DNA from: an uncultured Paracoccaceae bacterium
GTDB taxonomy: Bacteria > Pseudomonadota > Alphaproteobacteria > Rhodobacterales > Rhodobacteraceae
DNA: 42,223 bases
Assembly: GCA_937922155.1 (NCBI GenBank)
Contig: CAKZVL010000003.1
Coordinates: forward strand, 1-42,223
Direction: 5' to 3'
In this document: one piece after another, positions 9,618 through 29,400 of the stretch
Layout of the letters: each line of letters starts with the position of its first letter
How positions within the stretch are numbered: the stretch's first letter is position 1
Notes under the pieces: model-generated
Told to the model about the DNA's origin: nothing
The model's database searches: none
The model's input: the letters and a program-made list of their open reading frames with translations, nothing else
Translations under genes and position numbers: made by a program

Positions 9618-9706
9618 TGAGCATCTTTAGCGGCTAGAGAACGCTCGCGGAAGGCCCAAAAAATCAACAAAAACAAGGCAATTGACGTTAAAGTAATCCT
9701 TCGACG

Positions 9707-9736
9707 AGAAAATGGCCGTCCCATAAGGAACGGCCA
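9707..9736 (-). terminator. Intrinsic-terminator-like hairpin after the desaturase gene
   Basis: Read on the minus strand, TGGCCGT (9736-9730) pairs with ACGGCCA (9719-9713) around a 10-base loop and is followed directly by TTTTCTCG. This suits a rho-independent terminator for the desaturase transcript, about 125 bases past its stop and before the epimerase gene. Confidence 0.5.
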
Positions 9737-9769
9737 AACTCATCACACCACGATTAAGGGCCAAACTCA
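9732..9769. repeat. Two direct copies of GGCCAAACTCA
   Basis: GGCCAAACTCA occurs at 9732-9742 and again at 9759-9769, 27 bases apart start to start. The second copy runs into CACACACACAAACG (9768-9781), the same 14-mer found again at 26517-26530. The repeats lie upstream of the minus-strand epimerase gene and could be regulator sites. No protein is assigned to them. Confidence 0.45.
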
Positions 9770-9825
9770 CACACACAAACGCTCGACCCTTGCTTTCATC
9801 TACTACTGAAAACCACCTAATTAAG

Positions 9826-9845
9826 CTAGCATTAACTAGCATTAA
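9826..9845. repeat. Tandem 10-bp repeat CTAGCATTAA x2
   Basis: Two exact adjacent copies of CTAGCATTAA lie at 9826-9835 and 9836-9845, just past the desaturase stop codon. A 10-bp period places both copies on one helix face. It may be a binding site in the leader of the downstream epimerase operon, or simple local duplication. Confidence 0.45.
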
Positions 9846-9859
9846 TTTCTCTTAAGTGT

Positions 9860-10786
9860 TCACTCCGCAGGAAATGCCGGTGTGGCTTCAGATCGTACCG
9901 CGCTTTCAGATCGACGTGTTGCATTACTCCGTTTTGCGTAGTCTGAGTCCCACTCCAACAGGCGATGGCAAGATTCCAAATGTCGTGCAGGAATTTGTGG
10001 AAACAGGTGATGCACAAGGTGAAAGCAATCTGAGCGGGGAAACAAAAGCCAACGAACCAACCCAGGAGCAACAATGTTACGCGACGCATCCAGCTCATCC
10101 TCCGATGCGACAAGCCCCGCGTGATCCATACAATCCGTCCAGTAATTCAAGGCCGAATAGATCAACAGGAATGGCACAAAGACCATGACAAGCGCAGTCA
10201 CAGGTTGAAACGCCAGCAACGCAAAGGCCGACACGATCAGCGCATACTTCATCACCATGAACACTTTGCCGTCTTTGTCTGACAGGTTTGCTCCCAAGTA
10301 ATACGGCAGGTGACGCCCGATTAAAGGTGTCACAATGTGACGCGCAAGTGTTTTTGGCGTCAGCGGATCATGCAATCGCAAATCCTCTATGCCTTGAAGA
10401 TCCATATCATGTTCATAGTCGCCAAGATGCTTATGATGCGTCAAATGCTCATCCCGGTAGTCGGTAAAACAGCTCAGAACAGCAGACGCGCAAACGCTGC
10501 CCAGCAGTTTATTTTCCGCGCGGTCCTCCACGAACGAGGCATGGCTACATTCATGAACGATATTATTAAGGCCGCGGCAACGCGTTGCGACGAAAACCAT
10601 CAAAAAGGCGATCAGCGCATAGCTTGCAGTCCCGTCCGCGTAGTGAATTGCAACGTGTCCCGCTATGATGGCGAACAGCATTTGCAGCAGATATGATGCT
10701 ACAATTATGCGGCCTTCCCAACGTGCGTAACGCGTTAGTCCAGAGAATTTGCGCATGTAGCGCGATCGAAGTGTGTGTCCTGACAT
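9860..10786 (-). CDS. Membrane fatty acid desaturase family protein
   Basis: This 308-residue integral-membrane di-iron enzyme would introduce a double bond or hydroxyl into a lipid chain. All three histidine boxes are present: HECSH (78-82), HLTHHKH (114-120) and HLVHH (256-260). They are separated by hydrophobic segments at about 27-45, 55-70, 180-215 and nearby. I chose ATG 10786 because a run of six G sits about 5 bases upstream and the product then begins MSGHTLRSRYMRKF; the frame extends to 10831. It is transcribed alone, divergent from an ArgP-like regulator. A carotenoid hydroxylase/ketolase or ornithine-lipid hydroxylase role cannot be excluded from motifs alone. Confidence 0.85.
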   Translation of the reverse strand: MSGHTLRSRYMRKFSGLTRYARWEGRIIVASYLLQMLFAIIAGHVAIHYADGTASYALIAFLMVFVATRCRGLNNIVHECSHASFVEDRAENKLLGSVCASAVLSCFTDYRDEHLTHHKHLGDYEHDMDLQGIEDLRLHDPLTPKTLARHIVTPLIGRHLPYYLGANLSDKDGKVFMVMKYALIVSAFALLAFQPVTALVMVFVPFLLIYSALNYWTDCMDHAGLVASEDELDASRNIVAPGLVRWLLFPRSDCFHLVHHLFPQIPARHLESCHRLLEWDSDYAKRSNATRRSESAVRSEATPAFPAE

Positions 10787-10867
10787 ATCAGCCCCCCAGC
10801 TAATGACGAAGCCCACACTACAACTTTGCAATTGACCTTTAAAAATGAGTATTGCTAATATGCCATT

Positions 10868-10881
10868 AGATCATGTGATCT
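10868..10881. promoter_or_regulatory. Palindromic site between desaturase and LysR genes
   Basis: AGATCA (10868-10873) and TGATCT (10876-10881) are exact inverted arms around a 2-base centre, in an AT-rich 217-base divergent intergenic region. The position fits an operator shared by the two genes, possibly for the adjacent LysR protein. The classical LysR motif T-N11-A was not clearly placed on it. Confidence 0.35.
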
Positions 10882-11003
10882 TAAGATAAGGCGTGATAAT
10901 ATCGCATTCGGAAACAATGTGCATCAAATGTGGTTTTCTTATACTATATTCGAACAACTACTATTAATATATAAGCTGGACTTATGAAACGGATGGGAAA
11001 AAA

Positions 11004-11909
11004 ATGATCGACTTTGACTATGTTGCACTGAATGCGCTCGCCGCTGTGGTGCGTGAAGGATCATTTGAGGCGGCTGCGCGCACATTGAATGTGACTCAAT
11101 CCGCTGTAAGCCAGCGAATCAAGCATCTCGAAGAACGTACCGGGGCCATATTAATTGTTCGTGGACGGCCTTGCGTCCCCACCGATTTGGGCCTTCAATT
11201 ATGTCGCCACATCGACCACGTTTTACTGCTTGAACATGAAATAAAAAAGAACATGGATGACGGTTCTGGCGACACCAACAAAGCCGCCGTTCTGCGCATA
11301 GTCGTCAACAACGATAGCCTCGCAACATGGTTCCCCTCTGTCGTGCGCCGCGCTCAAAAAGAGATTAATGCCCATCTAGAAATCCTATCCGATGATCAGG
11401 AACATTCCGCTGAACATTTGAAATCTGGCGAAGCCTTTGCTGCCCTGACGGCAACCGAGCAGAACGTGCAAGGCTTTAAGCAAATCGCGCTTGGTCAAAT
11501 GGAATACACCGCAACTGCCTCCAAAGAATATCACAACCGCGAACTGAAAGATGGCGTCACCCTCGAAACACTGAGCCATGCGCCAGCCCTCGTCTTTGAT
11601 CGCAAAGACCAGCTTCCTCACCAATGGCTGACGCGTGCCTTCGGCGAAGCCACTGACCTCAACTATTGCATGATGCCATCTTATGAGGGGTACTTGTCCT
11701 GCATCAGTAACGGTACAGGTTGGGGAATGATGCCGACTGTCACAATCGAACGGCAACTGAAGTCTGGGCAATTGGTCGAATTGGTGCCCAATACACGCAT
11801 CAACGTGCCGCTCTACTGGCATTCCAGTAATCAAGGCGCTGATGTCTTCCGTAAGCTGGCCGAAATCGTCACAGATGAGGCCAAGAAAAGCTTGGCTCCT
11901 CGCGCATAG
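11004..11909 (+). CDS. LysR family transcriptional regulator, ArgP/LysG-like
   Basis: This 301-residue DNA-binding regulator has its N-terminal winged helix-turn-helix at about 20-43 (SFEAAARTLNVTQSAVSQRIKHLE). The QSAVSQRIKHLE stretch, and the later LLLEHE segment, closely resemble ArgP/IciA. The C-terminal half is the LysR effector domain. ArgP homologues usually control a divergent lysE/argO exporter, but here the divergent neighbour is a desaturase and the downstream convergent genes are tctABC, so its target is unclear. GGATGGGAAAAAA before ATG 11004 supplies the ribosome-binding site. The gene stops 15 bases before the tctA stop. Confidence 0.85.
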   Translation: MIDFDYVALNALAAVVREGSFEAAARTLNVTQSAVSQRIKHLEERTGAILIVRGRPCVPTDLGLQLCRHIDHVLLLEHEIKKNMDDGSGDTNKAAVLRIVVNNDSLATWFPSVVRRAQKEINAHLEILSDDQEHSAEHLKSGEAFAALTATEQNVQGFKQIALGQMEYTATASKEYHNRELKDGVTLETLSHAPALVFDRKDQLPHQWLTRAFGEATDLNYCMMPSYEGYLSCISNGTGWGMMPTVTIERQLKSGQLVELVPNTRINVPLYWHSSNQGADVFRKLAEIVTDEAKKSLAPRA

Positions 11910-25177: not shown

Positions 25178-26212
25178 ATGGGATCCAAATCCTCAACGCT
25201 CCAAGACGTTGCACGAGTTGCCGGGGTTTCGACCGCAACTGTTTCGCGTACCCTTTCCAATCCTGATGTCGTCTCCGAATCAACGCGGATTCGTGTTGCG
25301 CAAGCAGTCAAGGAAACGGATTACCGTATTAATCGTGCCGCACGCAGCCTGCGCACTCAACGCGCCCATTCGGTTTTGGTCCTCCTGCCTAATCTAGCCA
25401 ACCCATTCTTTTCATCGATCCTAGAAGGAATATCACGCCACCTTTCTCCCAAAGGGTATTCAATGCTCATAGCGAGCACCAATCAGGTGCAAGCCAGTGG
25501 TGAGCGCCTCATCGACTATTTTGAAGATGCCCGTGCTGACGGCATGATAATTCTCGATGGCAGCTTGGATTCTCATCTCGTCGAGATTTTGGAAAACGCA
25601 CCGCAGTCCAATCGTATCATTTTCGCCTGTGAATGGATCGATAACACCAGCTTTCCCGTGGTTCGTTGCGAAAATAAGCAAGGCACGCGCATCGCTGTGA
25701 ACCATCTCTATGATCTTGGGCACCGCAAAATCGCGCATGTCACAGGGCCAGACGGAAACGTCCTAAGCCATAGACGCAAGTCCGCCTTTATCGAAGAAAC
25801 TTCCGCTCTAAACCTTGACCTGAAACCGGAATGGGTCATCGACGGTGATTTCTCTCTCGCCGCTGGATGCCAGGCCGCGCAACGCTGGATCGCTCTCACT
25901 GATCGCCCAACAGCCGTCTTCTGCGCCTCTGATCAACTTGCGCTCGGATTCATGGCAGAATTGTCCCGCCACAACTTTACAGTGCCTGACGACGTATCTG
26001 TCATGGGTTTTGACGACCTTGACCTCGCGGAACAATATATCCCGCCCCTGACCTCCATTAAACAAGACCGCCTGATGATTGGTGAAGCAGCAGCCAAAAT
26101 GCTGATGGAACGGATTGCCGCTCCTCACGCGAAACACAGTAACGATGGCGCTGTAATTCCAGTGTCATTGATCGCCCGTGCCAGCACGGCACAGCTTAGA
26201 TCTGCTGCCTGA
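25178..26212 (+). CDS. LacI family transcriptional regulator of the sugar operon
   Basis: The 344-residue repressor-type regulator has its N-terminal helix-turn-helix in TLQDVARVAGVSTATVSRTL and the hinge in AARSLRTQRAHSVLV. A periplasmic-binding-protein-like effector domain follows (LPNLANPFFSSILEGI onward, with DLGHRKIAHVTGP and VMGFDDLDLAEQ). AGGA precedes ATG 25178; the frame extends 11 codons upstream to 25145, but that stretch is non-conserved. It is divergent from the transporter operon across a palindromic operator, so it probably regulates that operon and itself. The inducer is likely the imported sugar or an intermediate. Confidence 0.92.
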   Translation: MGSKSSTLQDVARVAGVSTATVSRTLSNPDVVSESTRIRVAQAVKETDYRINRAARSLRTQRAHSVLVLLPNLANPFFSSILEGISRHLSPKGYSMLIASTNQVQASGERLIDYFEDARADGMIILDGSLDSHLVEILENAPQSNRIIFACEWIDNTSFPVVRCENKQGTRIAVNHLYDLGHRKIAHVTGPDGNVLSHRRKSAFIEETSALNLDLKPEWVIDGDFSLAAGCQAAQRWIALTDRPTAVFCASDQLALGFMAELSRHNFTVPDDVSVMGFDDLDLAEQYIPPLTSIKQDRLMIGEAAAKMLMERIAAPHAKHSNDGAVIPVSLIARASTAQLRSAA

Positions 26213-26457
26213 ACTTTCACAATCGCCTAAGTTTGGCCAAACCCGGTACCACCAAAAATCTGGATTTTGACCAACAGGTTTGCTGCGATTCGACCCATTC
26301 ATGACAAGAAATCGCCACTGCAAATGTTACAGAATTATCTATTCTTATGACAAATTAGAATCTGTTTAAGGAATGTGACGCCCAAAGACACAATTGACCC
26401 CTGCTAAATAGGGCGATCCGCATTTCATGGCAGAAACTTGTCATTATGCCCCAATTT

Positions 26458-26472
26458 GAAACGTATCGTTTC
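26458..26472. promoter_or_regulatory. Palindrome GAAACG-TAT-CGTTTC
   Basis: The arms GAAACG (26458-26463) and CGTTTC (26467-26472) are perfect inverted copies around TAT. Outer bases extend the symmetry weakly (TT on the left, AA on the right). It lies about 105 bases before the preferred Hint-gene start and could be an operator for a LacI-type regulator. Nothing shows which protein binds it. Confidence 0.4.
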
Positions 26473-26516
26473 CAAGTCTAGGGGTGATCTCTGCCCGAGT
26501 TGCTGAATAGTGAGGG

Positions 26517-26568
26517 CACACACACAAACGGCGGCACACACACTTATGACACATACACACCTCACATT
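26517..26568 (+). repeat. CA-rich repeat tracts in the Hint-gene leader
   Basis: CACACACACAAACG (26517-26530), CACACACAC (26535-26543) and ACACATACACACCTCACA lie just ahead of the gene. Similar tracts follow it: ACACTCACACAAACG near 27055, CAGACACACACAG near 27112 and AACACACAAAAC near 27150. The first 14-mer also occurs at 9768-9781. CA repeats near start codons can raise translation in E. coli; a comparable effect here is speculative. Confidence 0.5.
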
Positions 26569-26575
26569 GAGCCGG

Positions 26576-27094
26576 ATGAAAAGCTTGGCCTCCTACCTTG
26601 GATCGCCACGCGCTACTTCACTCACACACTCCGGTTTCTTGCCAACGACAGTCATTGCAACTCCAGATGGCTGGCGGTCCGCATCCAGCATTCTGCCGGG
26701 CGACTTGGTTTCGCCGCCCGGCGGAATAGCTGTGCGCGTTCACGACGTACAGATGACTAGTATCGACCCCTACGAAAGCGATGCCGAACCTATCTATATT
26801 CCCAGTTATGCTTTGGGCAACCTGACGGACATGACGGTCCTACCGGATCAAGTGTTCAAACTGTCAAAAAACATATTGGGCGTACAACACACCACTCACA
26901 ACGGACAGGTCAAAGCACGCAATCTCATCGGTCTCAATGGTATCCGCACCTGCGACACAGATGATATGCCAACAGCCATCACTTTGACCTTCGAAAGAGA
27001 GACCGTAATCTGTTGCGCACACGGCAGCTTTGCGGTCTGCAGCCAGACACAAAACACTCACACAAACGAATTTGGGCCCCTCCTCACTGCCTAA
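26576..27094 (+). CDS. Stand-alone Hint-domain protein
   Basis: The 172-residue product is dominated by a Hint (hedgehog/intein) fold of the type common in Rhodobacterales. FLPTTVIATPDGWRSASSIL followed by PGDLV is the block-A/N2-like start, and ITLTFERETVICCAHGSFAVC is the distal core. The residue before TTVIAT is not Cys or Ser, so self-cleavage by the intein mechanism looks lost. There is no attached secreted domain (these Hint units usually sit at the end of large exported proteins). ATG 26576 is chosen because Hint homology begins about 20 residues later; the frame is open to 26510, but that part is encoded by CA repeats. Function is unknown. Confidence 0.65.
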   Translation: MKSLASYLGSPRATSLTHSGFLPTTVIATPDGWRSASSILPGDLVSPPGGIAVRVHDVQMTSIDPYESDAEPIYIPSYALGNLTDMTVLPDQVFKLSKNILGVQHTTHNGQVKARNLIGLNGIRTCDTDDMPTAITLTFERETVICCAHGSFAVCSQTQNTHTNEFGPLLTA

Positions 27095-27155
27095 ACAAGA
27101 ACAAGAGCAGACACACACAGAAAACCAGTTAACGCAGGTTGACGAAAAAACACAC

Positions 27156-27205
27156 AAAACCCCAGTATAAGGTGTCCGCATGTTGCGGGCACCTTATCTG
27201 GTTTT
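27156..27205. terminator. Long bidirectional terminator hairpin
   Basis: ATAAGGTG (27167-27174) pairs with CACCTTAT (27190-27197). Inside it CCGCA (27176-27180) pairs with TGCGG (27184-27188) around a 3-base loop, giving about 14 pairs including one T-G. AAAAC lies on the left flank and GGTTTT on the right, so it can terminate both the Hint gene (plus) and the isocitrate dehydrogenase gene (minus). Confidence 0.75.
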
Positions 27206-27216
27206 AGGGTCGCGAA

Positions 27217-29400
27217 TTATCCGATGATCGCGTTTAATGTGGCGGACGGGCGCATCACTGCCGCCGTCTTCACTTCATCCGTTAAATAGTACCCACCAAG
27301 GTCCACAGGCTGACCACTGGCCGCCTTGATCTCTGACACAATCGTATCCGCCTTTGATGCCAATTCAGCCGCAACAGGTGCAAAAGCCGTGGCAAGTGCG
27401 CTGTCATCAGACTGCGCCGCCAGCGCCTCGGCCCAATACAGCGCAAAGTGGAAATGGCTGGTACGATTATCATCCTGGCCAACTTTGCGTCCCGGTGATT
27501 TGCCCATCGACAACAGTTTTTCAGTGGCCGCGTCCACAGCATCGCCCAACACCTTACCTTTAGCCCCACCCGCAAATCGCAAGCTTTCGCCAAGAGCGCA
27601 GAATTCACCCAGTGAATCCCAGCGTAAATGGTTTTCCTCAACCAGTTGTTCAACGTGCTTGGGCGCAGAGCCCCCTGCCCCCGTTTCAAACAATCCACCA
27701 CCTTGCATCAATTTGACGACGGACAACATCTTGGCCGATGTGCCGACTTCCAGAATGGGGAACAGGTCGGTCAGATAGTCGCGCAGCACGTTGCCTGTGA
27801 TGGCAATGCAGGTCGCGCCTGTGCGGATTTCTTCCATGCTGGCGCGGGTCGCCGGGATCGGCGCCATGATTTCGAACCTGTCCGTCAATCCCTTCGCCGC
27901 CAGCGCAGGGGTGACATATTTCAACAGCTCTGCGTCATGGGCGCGGGTCGTATCCAGCCAGAAAATCGCACGGCAATTTTCAGCCGCTTGACGTTCAATC
28001 GCCAGCTCAATCCAGTTTTCAATCGGAGCCTTGCGGGTGGACGCCATGCGCCAGATATCACCAGCAGCGACCTTATGGCTCATCAAGACCGTATCACCGT
28101 TCATGACACGCATCGTACCCGCCTCGGCGACTTCAAACGTGGTGGGGTGGGATCCGTATTCTTCGGCCTTTTGGGCCATCAAACCGACGTTCTGAACAGT
28201 GCCAGATGTGACAGGGTCAAGGGCACCGGTTTCTTTGAAATAATCAATGCTCGCCGAATAAACCCCGGCATAGGAACTATCGGGAATCACACAGGTTGTA
28301 TCACCTTCATTGCCATCAGGGCCCCAACCCTTACCACCAGCACGGATGACAGCGGGCATAGACGCATCAATAATCACATCAGACGGGACATGCAGGTTGG
28401 TAATCCCCTTATCAGAATTCACCATATAAAGCGGCGGACGGCTGGCAAGCGTCTCTTCAATCTCTTTCAGGATCGCGGCACCGCCATCCATCTCTGCGAT
28501 CTTGTCCAACATCGTGCCCAAACCGCCATTTGGGTTGATCCCTGCGGCCTCAAACGCGACGCCATGGGCCTCAAACACAGGGGCCAAATAACGACGCACA
28601 CAATGGCCAAAGATAATCGGGTCTGACACTTTCATCATCGTCGCCTTCATGTGCAGCGAAAACAGCGTGCCTTCCTTTGCAACCTCCGCAATAACACCGT
28701 CGTAAAACGCGGTCAGGGCTTTGACAGACATAAAAGTGCAATCCACGATTGTGCCCGCAGGCATCGACAGCCCATCTTTCAACACGGTCACACCCGACCC
28801 GCCTTCGTGTTCAATGCGCAAAGTCGCCGCATCAGACAGCGTGACGGATTGTTCATTGGAACGGAAATCATCAGCGCCCATCGTGGCCACGCGGGTTTTG
28901 CTATCGCTCACCCACTTACCCATCCGGTGCGGGTTGGCGCGTGCAAATGCCTTAACGGCCGCAGGGGCACGACGATCAGAATTACCCTCGCGCAAGACAG
29001 GATTCACAGCTGATCCTTTGATCGCATCATACTTTGCACGGACAGCCTTTTCAGCAGCAGTTTGCGGGTCCTCAGGGTAATCGGGCAATGCAAACCCTTG
29101 CCCTTGCAATTCCTCGATGGCTTCAACCAACTGTGGGACCGATGCAGAAATGTTGGGCAGCTTGATAACGTTGGCATCAGCCGTTTTCACTAGCTCTCCC
29201 AATTCGGCCAAATCATCCGATTGCCGCTGATCGGCAGCTAAGTGATCAGAAAAGGCGGCGAGGATACGGCCAGCAAGCGAGATATCGCGGGTCTCTACAT
29301 CCATGCCCGCTTCTGTCAGAAATCGACGAATAATCGGCAACAATGACGCAGCAGCAAGCTGCGGTGCTTCGTCGACTTTGGTATAAATGATTTTGGCCAT
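27217..29400 (-). CDS. icd: Monomeric NADP-dependent isocitrate dehydrogenase
   Basis: This 727-residue TCA-cycle enzyme oxidises isocitrate to 2-oxoglutarate with NADP. The N-terminus [20 protein letters not shown] and the internal motifs [44 protein letters not shown] and [19 protein letters not shown] are those of the monomeric class, unrelated in architecture to the homodimeric Icd. Length agrees with the family (about 740). I chose ATG 29400 with GGAG upstream; the 14-residue extension to 29442 is not family-like. It stands alone between a long terminator and a SnoaL-like gene on the same strand, with a palindrome about 50 bases before its start. Confidence 0.95.

Follow-up and report, generated by a model that had tools for sequence, protein, structure and literature searches.

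The locus described here raises two linked questions: what may be expected of a Hint domain that stands alone in its gene and lacks its nucleophile, and whether the CA-rich sequence on both sides of that gene has a role of its own. The gene lies in the window, by which we mean the whole stretch of DNA that was analysed (42,223 nt; contig C3 of a 2.99-Mb genome). Its open frame, 26510–27094 on the + strand with a GTG start, is intact. The Hint_2 gene proper is placed at 26576..27094 (+) and encodes 172 residues from ATG 26576 (194 if GTG 26510 is used); ATG 26576 is the likely start because the starts chosen for relatives sit similarly far from the GT.VAT motif. The Pfam Hint_2 profile (PF13403) matches residues 42–168 of the long ORF (E 2.6e-10), and the score of 41.3–41.5 bits lies above the curated cut-off of 28.4. 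An earlier note had described the gene as stand-alone, and alone it is, since a LacI-type regulator gene (25190 to about 26212, +) lies upstream and a convergent isocitrate dehydrogenase gene (icd, from 27217) downstream.

The transcript would run from near 26490, a 5′ end that we infer, through the Hint gene to a terminator-like hairpin at 27167..27197 (+), where the 3′ CA tract stops. A search for sigma-70-type promoters on the + strand of 26200–27300 found none. Upstream of the leader lies a perfect palindrome, GAAACGTATCGTTTC (26458..26472), present in the window in this one exact copy; it is a possible operator, which we take to resemble that of LacI. An inverted repeat, AAAACCAGTTAA (27121–27132) and TTATCTGGTTTT (27194–27205), has a second arm that overlaps the terminator-like hairpin. 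Plasmid records searched with the Hint protein and phage records searched with 26300–27250 gave no match.

The protein is predicted to adopt the Hint/intein fold (pLDDT 80.5). Structure comparison returned 14 PDB chains at E<=0.001, all of them inteins or bacterial intein-like (BIL) domains, with matches spanning residues 17–158 of the model and 2lwy as the best of them (Z 14.7; rmsd 2.0 over 119 aligned positions); a sequence search of solved structures was weak (best E 0.0046). In the structural alignment, 18 rows start at chain residue 1; that residue falls on model residue 20 in 17 of them and on residue 19 in the other (7cfv). Residue 20 is a glycine (SGFLPTTVIAT) that replaces Cys1, with no Cys, Ser, or Thr at the position, in keeping with the earlier note's remark that the nucleophile before TTVIAT is missing. 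The histidine of block B, a designation we presume to be the customary one, is likewise replaced, by Gln92, so that the structure prediction which had been proposed for the active-site Cys and His finds the fold with Gly20 and Gln92 at those sites. Cys155 is present, and Cys is common there in the family.

Relatives were gathered by a profile scan of a genome collection in which each of 84,980 species is represented once, which yielded 236 confirmed relatives and from which the best 80 loci were kept, using a pattern that favours typical members; a first search of genome contigs with the single window protein had returned no relative. The residue alignment comprises 111 stand-alone rows, which reduce to 100 distinct domain sequences, together with seven longer Cys-type proteins. 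Of the 100 distinct stand-alone members, 99 have Gly at position 1 and one has a gap there; at the block-B His position, 99 have Gln and one has Ala. The longer proteins keep both Cys and His (7/7). Since the same two replacements are fixed throughout, the altered site is a property of the family and not an accident of the window gene. The Hint_2 profile matches all 31 of the aligned stand-alone members to which it was applied, and 85 of 394 family genomes have a match to the window protein at E<=1e-6, a count to which some Cys-type Hints may contribute. These stand-alone proteins constitute a conserved Rhodobacteraceae family, which we term pseudo-Hints. With Gly at position 1, Gln at block B, a short chain, and no other domain, the window protein is a divergent member, and falls under Hint_2 rather than under the active Hint domains.

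Because of Gly at Cys1 and Gln at the block-B His, no N–S acyl shift should occur, and the pseudo-Hints are apparently dead enzymes that have kept their fold. They probably act instead as a non-catalytic binding module. In NCBIfam, neither of two Hint proteins found a family, and among the open-access papers listed none dealt with Rhodobacteraceae Hint proteins that stand alone and lack the Cys. One study describes the Hint domain as over-represented in strongly responding Rhodobacteraceae (PMC12487129).

The family has a characteristic home. Of the 80 loci, 73 have a sulfotransferase-family gene upstream in the same orientation and 68 have a convergent fadB gene downstream; 62 have the two together, and 79 have one or both. 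The window gene, between LacI and icd, lies outside this usual sulfotransferase–Hint–fadB locus, which is carried by its genus mates, as a typical copy in genome G002 and a diverged one in G001. The latter (L337, 3606–4139), a strongly diverged syntenic pseudo-Hint of 177 residues that retains Gly and Gln, was overlooked by the single-sequence search. In the window's own genome, fadB, whose start is cut by the contig end, has a mechanosensitive-channel gene as its neighbour, and neither a Hint nor a sulfotransferase gene is found at that locus; nor does this 95%-complete assembly hold a homolog of the G001 sulfotransferase at E<=0.001.

A second neighbourhood, outside the fadB locus, was found in genome G050, in the order desaturase–LysR–Hint–double cold-shock gene–Hint, with a third pseudo-Hint copy at the usual fadB locus (L340). 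Apart from its match to itself, the window protein finds its best counterpart in the 394 genomes in the first G050 Hint (38% identity, E 1.9e-14). The window itself contains a fatty acid desaturase family gene (9863..10801, −) and a LysR-type regulator gene (11004..11906, +) that are 62% and 59% identical, respectively, to the desaturase near the first G050 Hint and the LysR directly upstream of it; here the pair (9863–11906) lies about 15 kb from the Hint gene, with tricarboxylate- and sugar-related genes between. The window Hint probably belongs to this second type of neighbourhood, later spread by insertion. The earlier note had raised past rearrangement; a rearrangement agrees with a locus that differs from the only partly matching G050 neighbourhood, but it would have moved the gene, not split it. 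A tree of 50 rows does not confirm a G050-type origin: it gives the window row no position with support, and it joins the first G050 copy to the one at the fadB locus of G050 (90/86), not to the window gene. The desaturase–LysR–Hint arrangement was found in none of 16 further loci fetched, and plasmid records searched with the window desaturase gave no match at E<=1e-40. At the G050 locus (L339, 3415–5528; G050:C71), the double cold-shock gene sits between two pseudo-Hints, the first of which ends about 35 nt before it. Adjacency of Hint and cold-shock genes was also sought more widely: by motif it occurred among 128 loci in G050 only (two overlapping loci, one place), and by homology at 0 of 80 loci.

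We turn to the CA tracts. The leader (26510..26570, +) has 10 CACA in 61 nt, in runs at 26517–26526, 26535–26543, and 26550–26566, and holds 12 ACA clustered near the start codon. A CACACAC run follows in the variable N-terminal coding tail (26620..26629, +). At the other end, the variable C-terminal coding tail (27047..27068, +) is CA-rich, as is an A-rich 3′ region (27095..27160, +; A 51% and T 8% over 27095–27170); over 27045–27160 (116 nt) there are eight CACA. The description of CA-rich sequence on both sides of the gene is therefore accurate. No perfect run in the transcript exceeds five CA units, which sets the tracts apart from a classical phase-variable microsatellite.

The window as such is not rich (20 matches to CACACA against 27.8 expected), and 10 of the 20 fall within 26517–27156, all on the + strand; within 26500–27200, CACA starts 24 times and TGTG once. 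In a sample of 440.8 kb, consisting of the window and 20 stretches of its own genome read on both strands, about 15% of that genome, the sense strand of the Hint gene has the highest density (24 CACA per 700 nt; runner-up 12). All 20 stretches come from contigs with CACACACA sites, so the sample is not biased against competitors. Among 14,680 tiles of 60 nt, at least four CACA occur in 11 and at least six in one. The CA-rich transcript is thus real, and unusual within this genome sample. Nor is the bias limited to the flanks, since coding bases contribute: the coding part (26576–27091) has nine CACA, where synonymous shuffling predicts 4.0 (p 0.014), and 11 other window genes show no such excess (p 0.13–0.95). 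All six His codons are CAC. The core by itself (26639–27040) shows no significant excess (four against 2.2 expected, p 0.16). A synonymous excess implies a cause that acts on nucleotides and not only on amino acids.

Conservation of the tracts, which the earlier note had proposed to check, is not seen. Against 30.7 CACA per kb in the window gene, 15 Hint loci of relatives have 0–4.4, a second set of 29 rows has 0–6.5 (row L134 being cut at an internal stop), and the 80 loci have a mean of 2.5 (sd 2.1; maximum 9.1; L272 cut at an internal stop); the three sets overlap in part. The nearest Hint relative has 2.4 per kb and no CA leader. As far as the relatives examined show, none has comparable CA-rich flanks, and the tracts are lineage-specific; being absent from relatives and above synonymous expectation, they constitute a lineage-specific trait at the nucleotide level.

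What might such a trait do? A study of enterobacterial mRNAs reports that ACA motifs near the ribosome site raise translation, that dppA expression dropped more than 100-fold when its four ACAs were replaced, and that such enhancers are masked and silenced by the GU-rich RNA GcvB (PMC3879156). By analogy, we envisage that the Hint mRNA acquired CA/ACA-rich ends and CA-biased synonymous sites, seemingly only in this lineage, and that its open, ACA-rich leader would raise ribosome loading as ACA motifs do in enterobacteria, with the further possibility that a GU-rich RNA could mask it. The predicted fold of the leader is mostly an open 44-nt loop, closed by six pairs (GUGAGG/CCUCAC, 26510–26515 with 26560–26565). 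Translation enhancement of the ACA type appears to be the likeliest function of the tracts, with drift as its main rival. We lean, by a modest degree, toward a combined reading in which a diverging pseudo-Hint, encoded outside the usual locus, is translated from an mRNA whose CA-rich ends act at the RNA level.

Several observations temper the enhancer. Neither the nearest Hint relative nor the cold-shock relatives described below have a CA leader, which fits neutral drift equally well. The 71-nt leader is as stable as its shuffles (z −0.02) and hence no less structured, and the start region (26510–26640) is more structured than shuffles (z −2.8). A leader enhancer does not account for the 3′ tract, and the coding core, as noted, lacks a significant excess of its own.

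The most serious alternative is relaxed constraint, which we consider appreciably less probable, though far from negligible: the gene would be a displaced, decaying, or fast-drifting copy, its CA runs the functionless product of slippage and mutation bias. The window gene has the longest end branch of the 50 rows (3.82) and is missing the GDPF family motif and the C-terminal segment, features that leave room for relaxed constraint and weigh against the enhancer. The tracts are densest in the leader, the tails, and the 3′ region and not significant in the core; first-position GC is 0.52, against 0.56–0.65 in 11 other window genes; and the genome's own fadB locus lacks Hint and sulfotransferase. 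Against decay stand the intact frame with its confident Hint model, the retained Gly/Gln/Cys signature, and the strong strand bias across the transcript, and short separate runs spread over 650 nt do not resemble a single slippage event.

Comparison with other CA-rich sites bears on both readings. The own genome has 42 overlapping CACACACA matches, treated as 32 loci, and genes judged by eye to have a CA tract just before the start include a double cold-shock gene, a DUF6456 gene, a CAP-domain lipoprotein gene, and the gene of an uncharacterised 196-residue protein. Near gene starts, however, the CACACACA count over 106 loci in four genomes (13 sense, 8 antisense; p 0.38) is not significant; it was made mechanically, and several of its labels are visibly wrong because spurious ORFs compete. 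The double cold-shock gene (L006; G000:C77, 5166–5195, −) has two CA runs just before its start, and this tract, too, is not shared: eight CACA in the 180 nt upstream, against 0–3 in the 21 remaining rows, which represent 20 other genomes and a paralog from the own genome (the highest two being G002 and G011). Among 198 family genomes, 31 have paired CA tracts, and the own genome has them at four distinct places; of 28 places in other genomes, some (L152, L156, L164) look leader-like and others repeat- or coding-like. In genome G123, a near-identical gene for a small exported-looking protein recurs with the same CA-rich leader (L156, L241, L242, L245); this shared motif was rejected as a regulon, the four leaders being copies of one gene. 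Elsewhere in the own genome (L068; G000:C173, about 6869), CACACACA lies, by eye, in the loop of a CCCGGCTA hairpin between genes for a sugar-binding protein and a permease, a possible intercistronic attenuator. In G050, a CA-rich leader (L339, about 672–690, +) precedes a small gene resembling DUF1127, and a 12-nt complement to this leader is found again in the desaturase gene next to it, within the GU-rich 3′ region.

The earlier note had also suggested a small-RNA target, and one candidate partner was found, a structured intergenic RNA on the − strand after the window desaturase gene (9706..9850). Its fold is strong (z −5.9; 0 of 200 shuffles as good), a GU tract fills exactly the 14-nt loop of its 11-bp stem, and a terminator-like hairpin (9736–9713, −) follows. 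The loop region is complementary to leader positions 26517–26530 over 14 contiguous nt; besides its own site, only the Hint leader among the 32 CACACACA loci has this full match, the best of the other 30 reaching 12. An upstream TTAA-N7-TTAA resembles what we take to be a CtrA box. Such an RNA would pair with the CA leader and repress or protect the Hint mRNA in the manner of GcvB, and the proximity of desaturase and Hint in G050 points the same way. The complementarity is suggestive, but statistically weak and not significant genome-wide: AACG follows CACA at 29 of 3260 sites (0.9%), so that 31 places would be expected to yield about 0.3 such 14-nt matches. Whole-segment duplex energies rank the Hint windows 908th (27031) and 1,339th (26491) of 29,318; they do not single the leader out, and were rejected as a pointer to it. 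The element is not conserved in G050, the one neighbourhood relative (fold z 0.1, no CA leader); no promoter match was found for it, Rfam gave nothing reliable, with no hit in the window at gathering thresholds and a sub-threshold match to BSnc119 (19.4 against 115 bits) that was taken as chance, and plasmid records searched with its DNA gave no match. We regard this pairing as improbable. Less probable again is its extension to a two-part circuit, in which the GU loop of the desaturase 3′-end RNA would pair with the pseudo-Hint CA leader and with weaker CA sites, the Hint gene having formerly resided in the desaturase neighbourhood and the set of CA leaders including that of the RNA-binding double cold-shock protein; in G050, a cold-shock gene lies directly beside the first Hint.

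It is very unlikely that the tracts code for an N-terminal extension rich in His and Thr, or for a short leader peptide: GTG 26510 and ATG 26546 are in frame, but the relatives examined have no such residues and no CA-coded extension, so the tracts are not the ordinary coding sequence of a longer gene, and the CA excess is also synonymous. Scarcely tenable is the idea, put forward in the earlier note, that the stand-alone state is the scar of a Hint domain cut out of a larger exported protein, for although the Cys-type Hint domains of family genomes do lie in longer ORFs (296–692 residues from stop to stop), a search for the missing upstream domain found Hint proteins standing alone in relatives too, as a conserved Cys-less family that has a synteny and residue changes of its own.

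A widespread group in which the loss of both Hint catalytic residues is fixed, and which shows strong synteny with a sulfotransferase, would mean that a major bacterial family has put the Hint fold to new use as a non-catalytic module. Set beside the Cys-type Hint_2 domains of longer Rhodobacteraceae proteins, the pseudo-Hints are alike in profile match and predicted fold but stand alone, have exchanged Cys1 for Gly and His for Gln, and in 90 of the 100 distinct members have swapped the Cys-type ES/ETFxPG end for a segment ending in Cys. BIL domains and class 3 inteins are the closest structures to the window model, yet identity is about 15%, and unlike them the window Hint has no nucleophile and is not embedded in a host protein. 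For the mRNA, the parallel is with the ACA enhancers and GcvB target leaders of enterobacteria (PMC3879156), which share with it clustered ACA/CA upstream of the start and, for GcvB targets, a GU-rich partner, here a candidate. The CA-rich Hint mRNA could accordingly offer a simple place to test ACA enhancers and control by GU-rich RNA outside enterobacteria. It differs from those enterobacterial leaders (PMC3879156) in belonging to another bacterial class, in carrying CA also in its coding tails and 3′ region, and in having a tract that is not conserved in the relatives examined.
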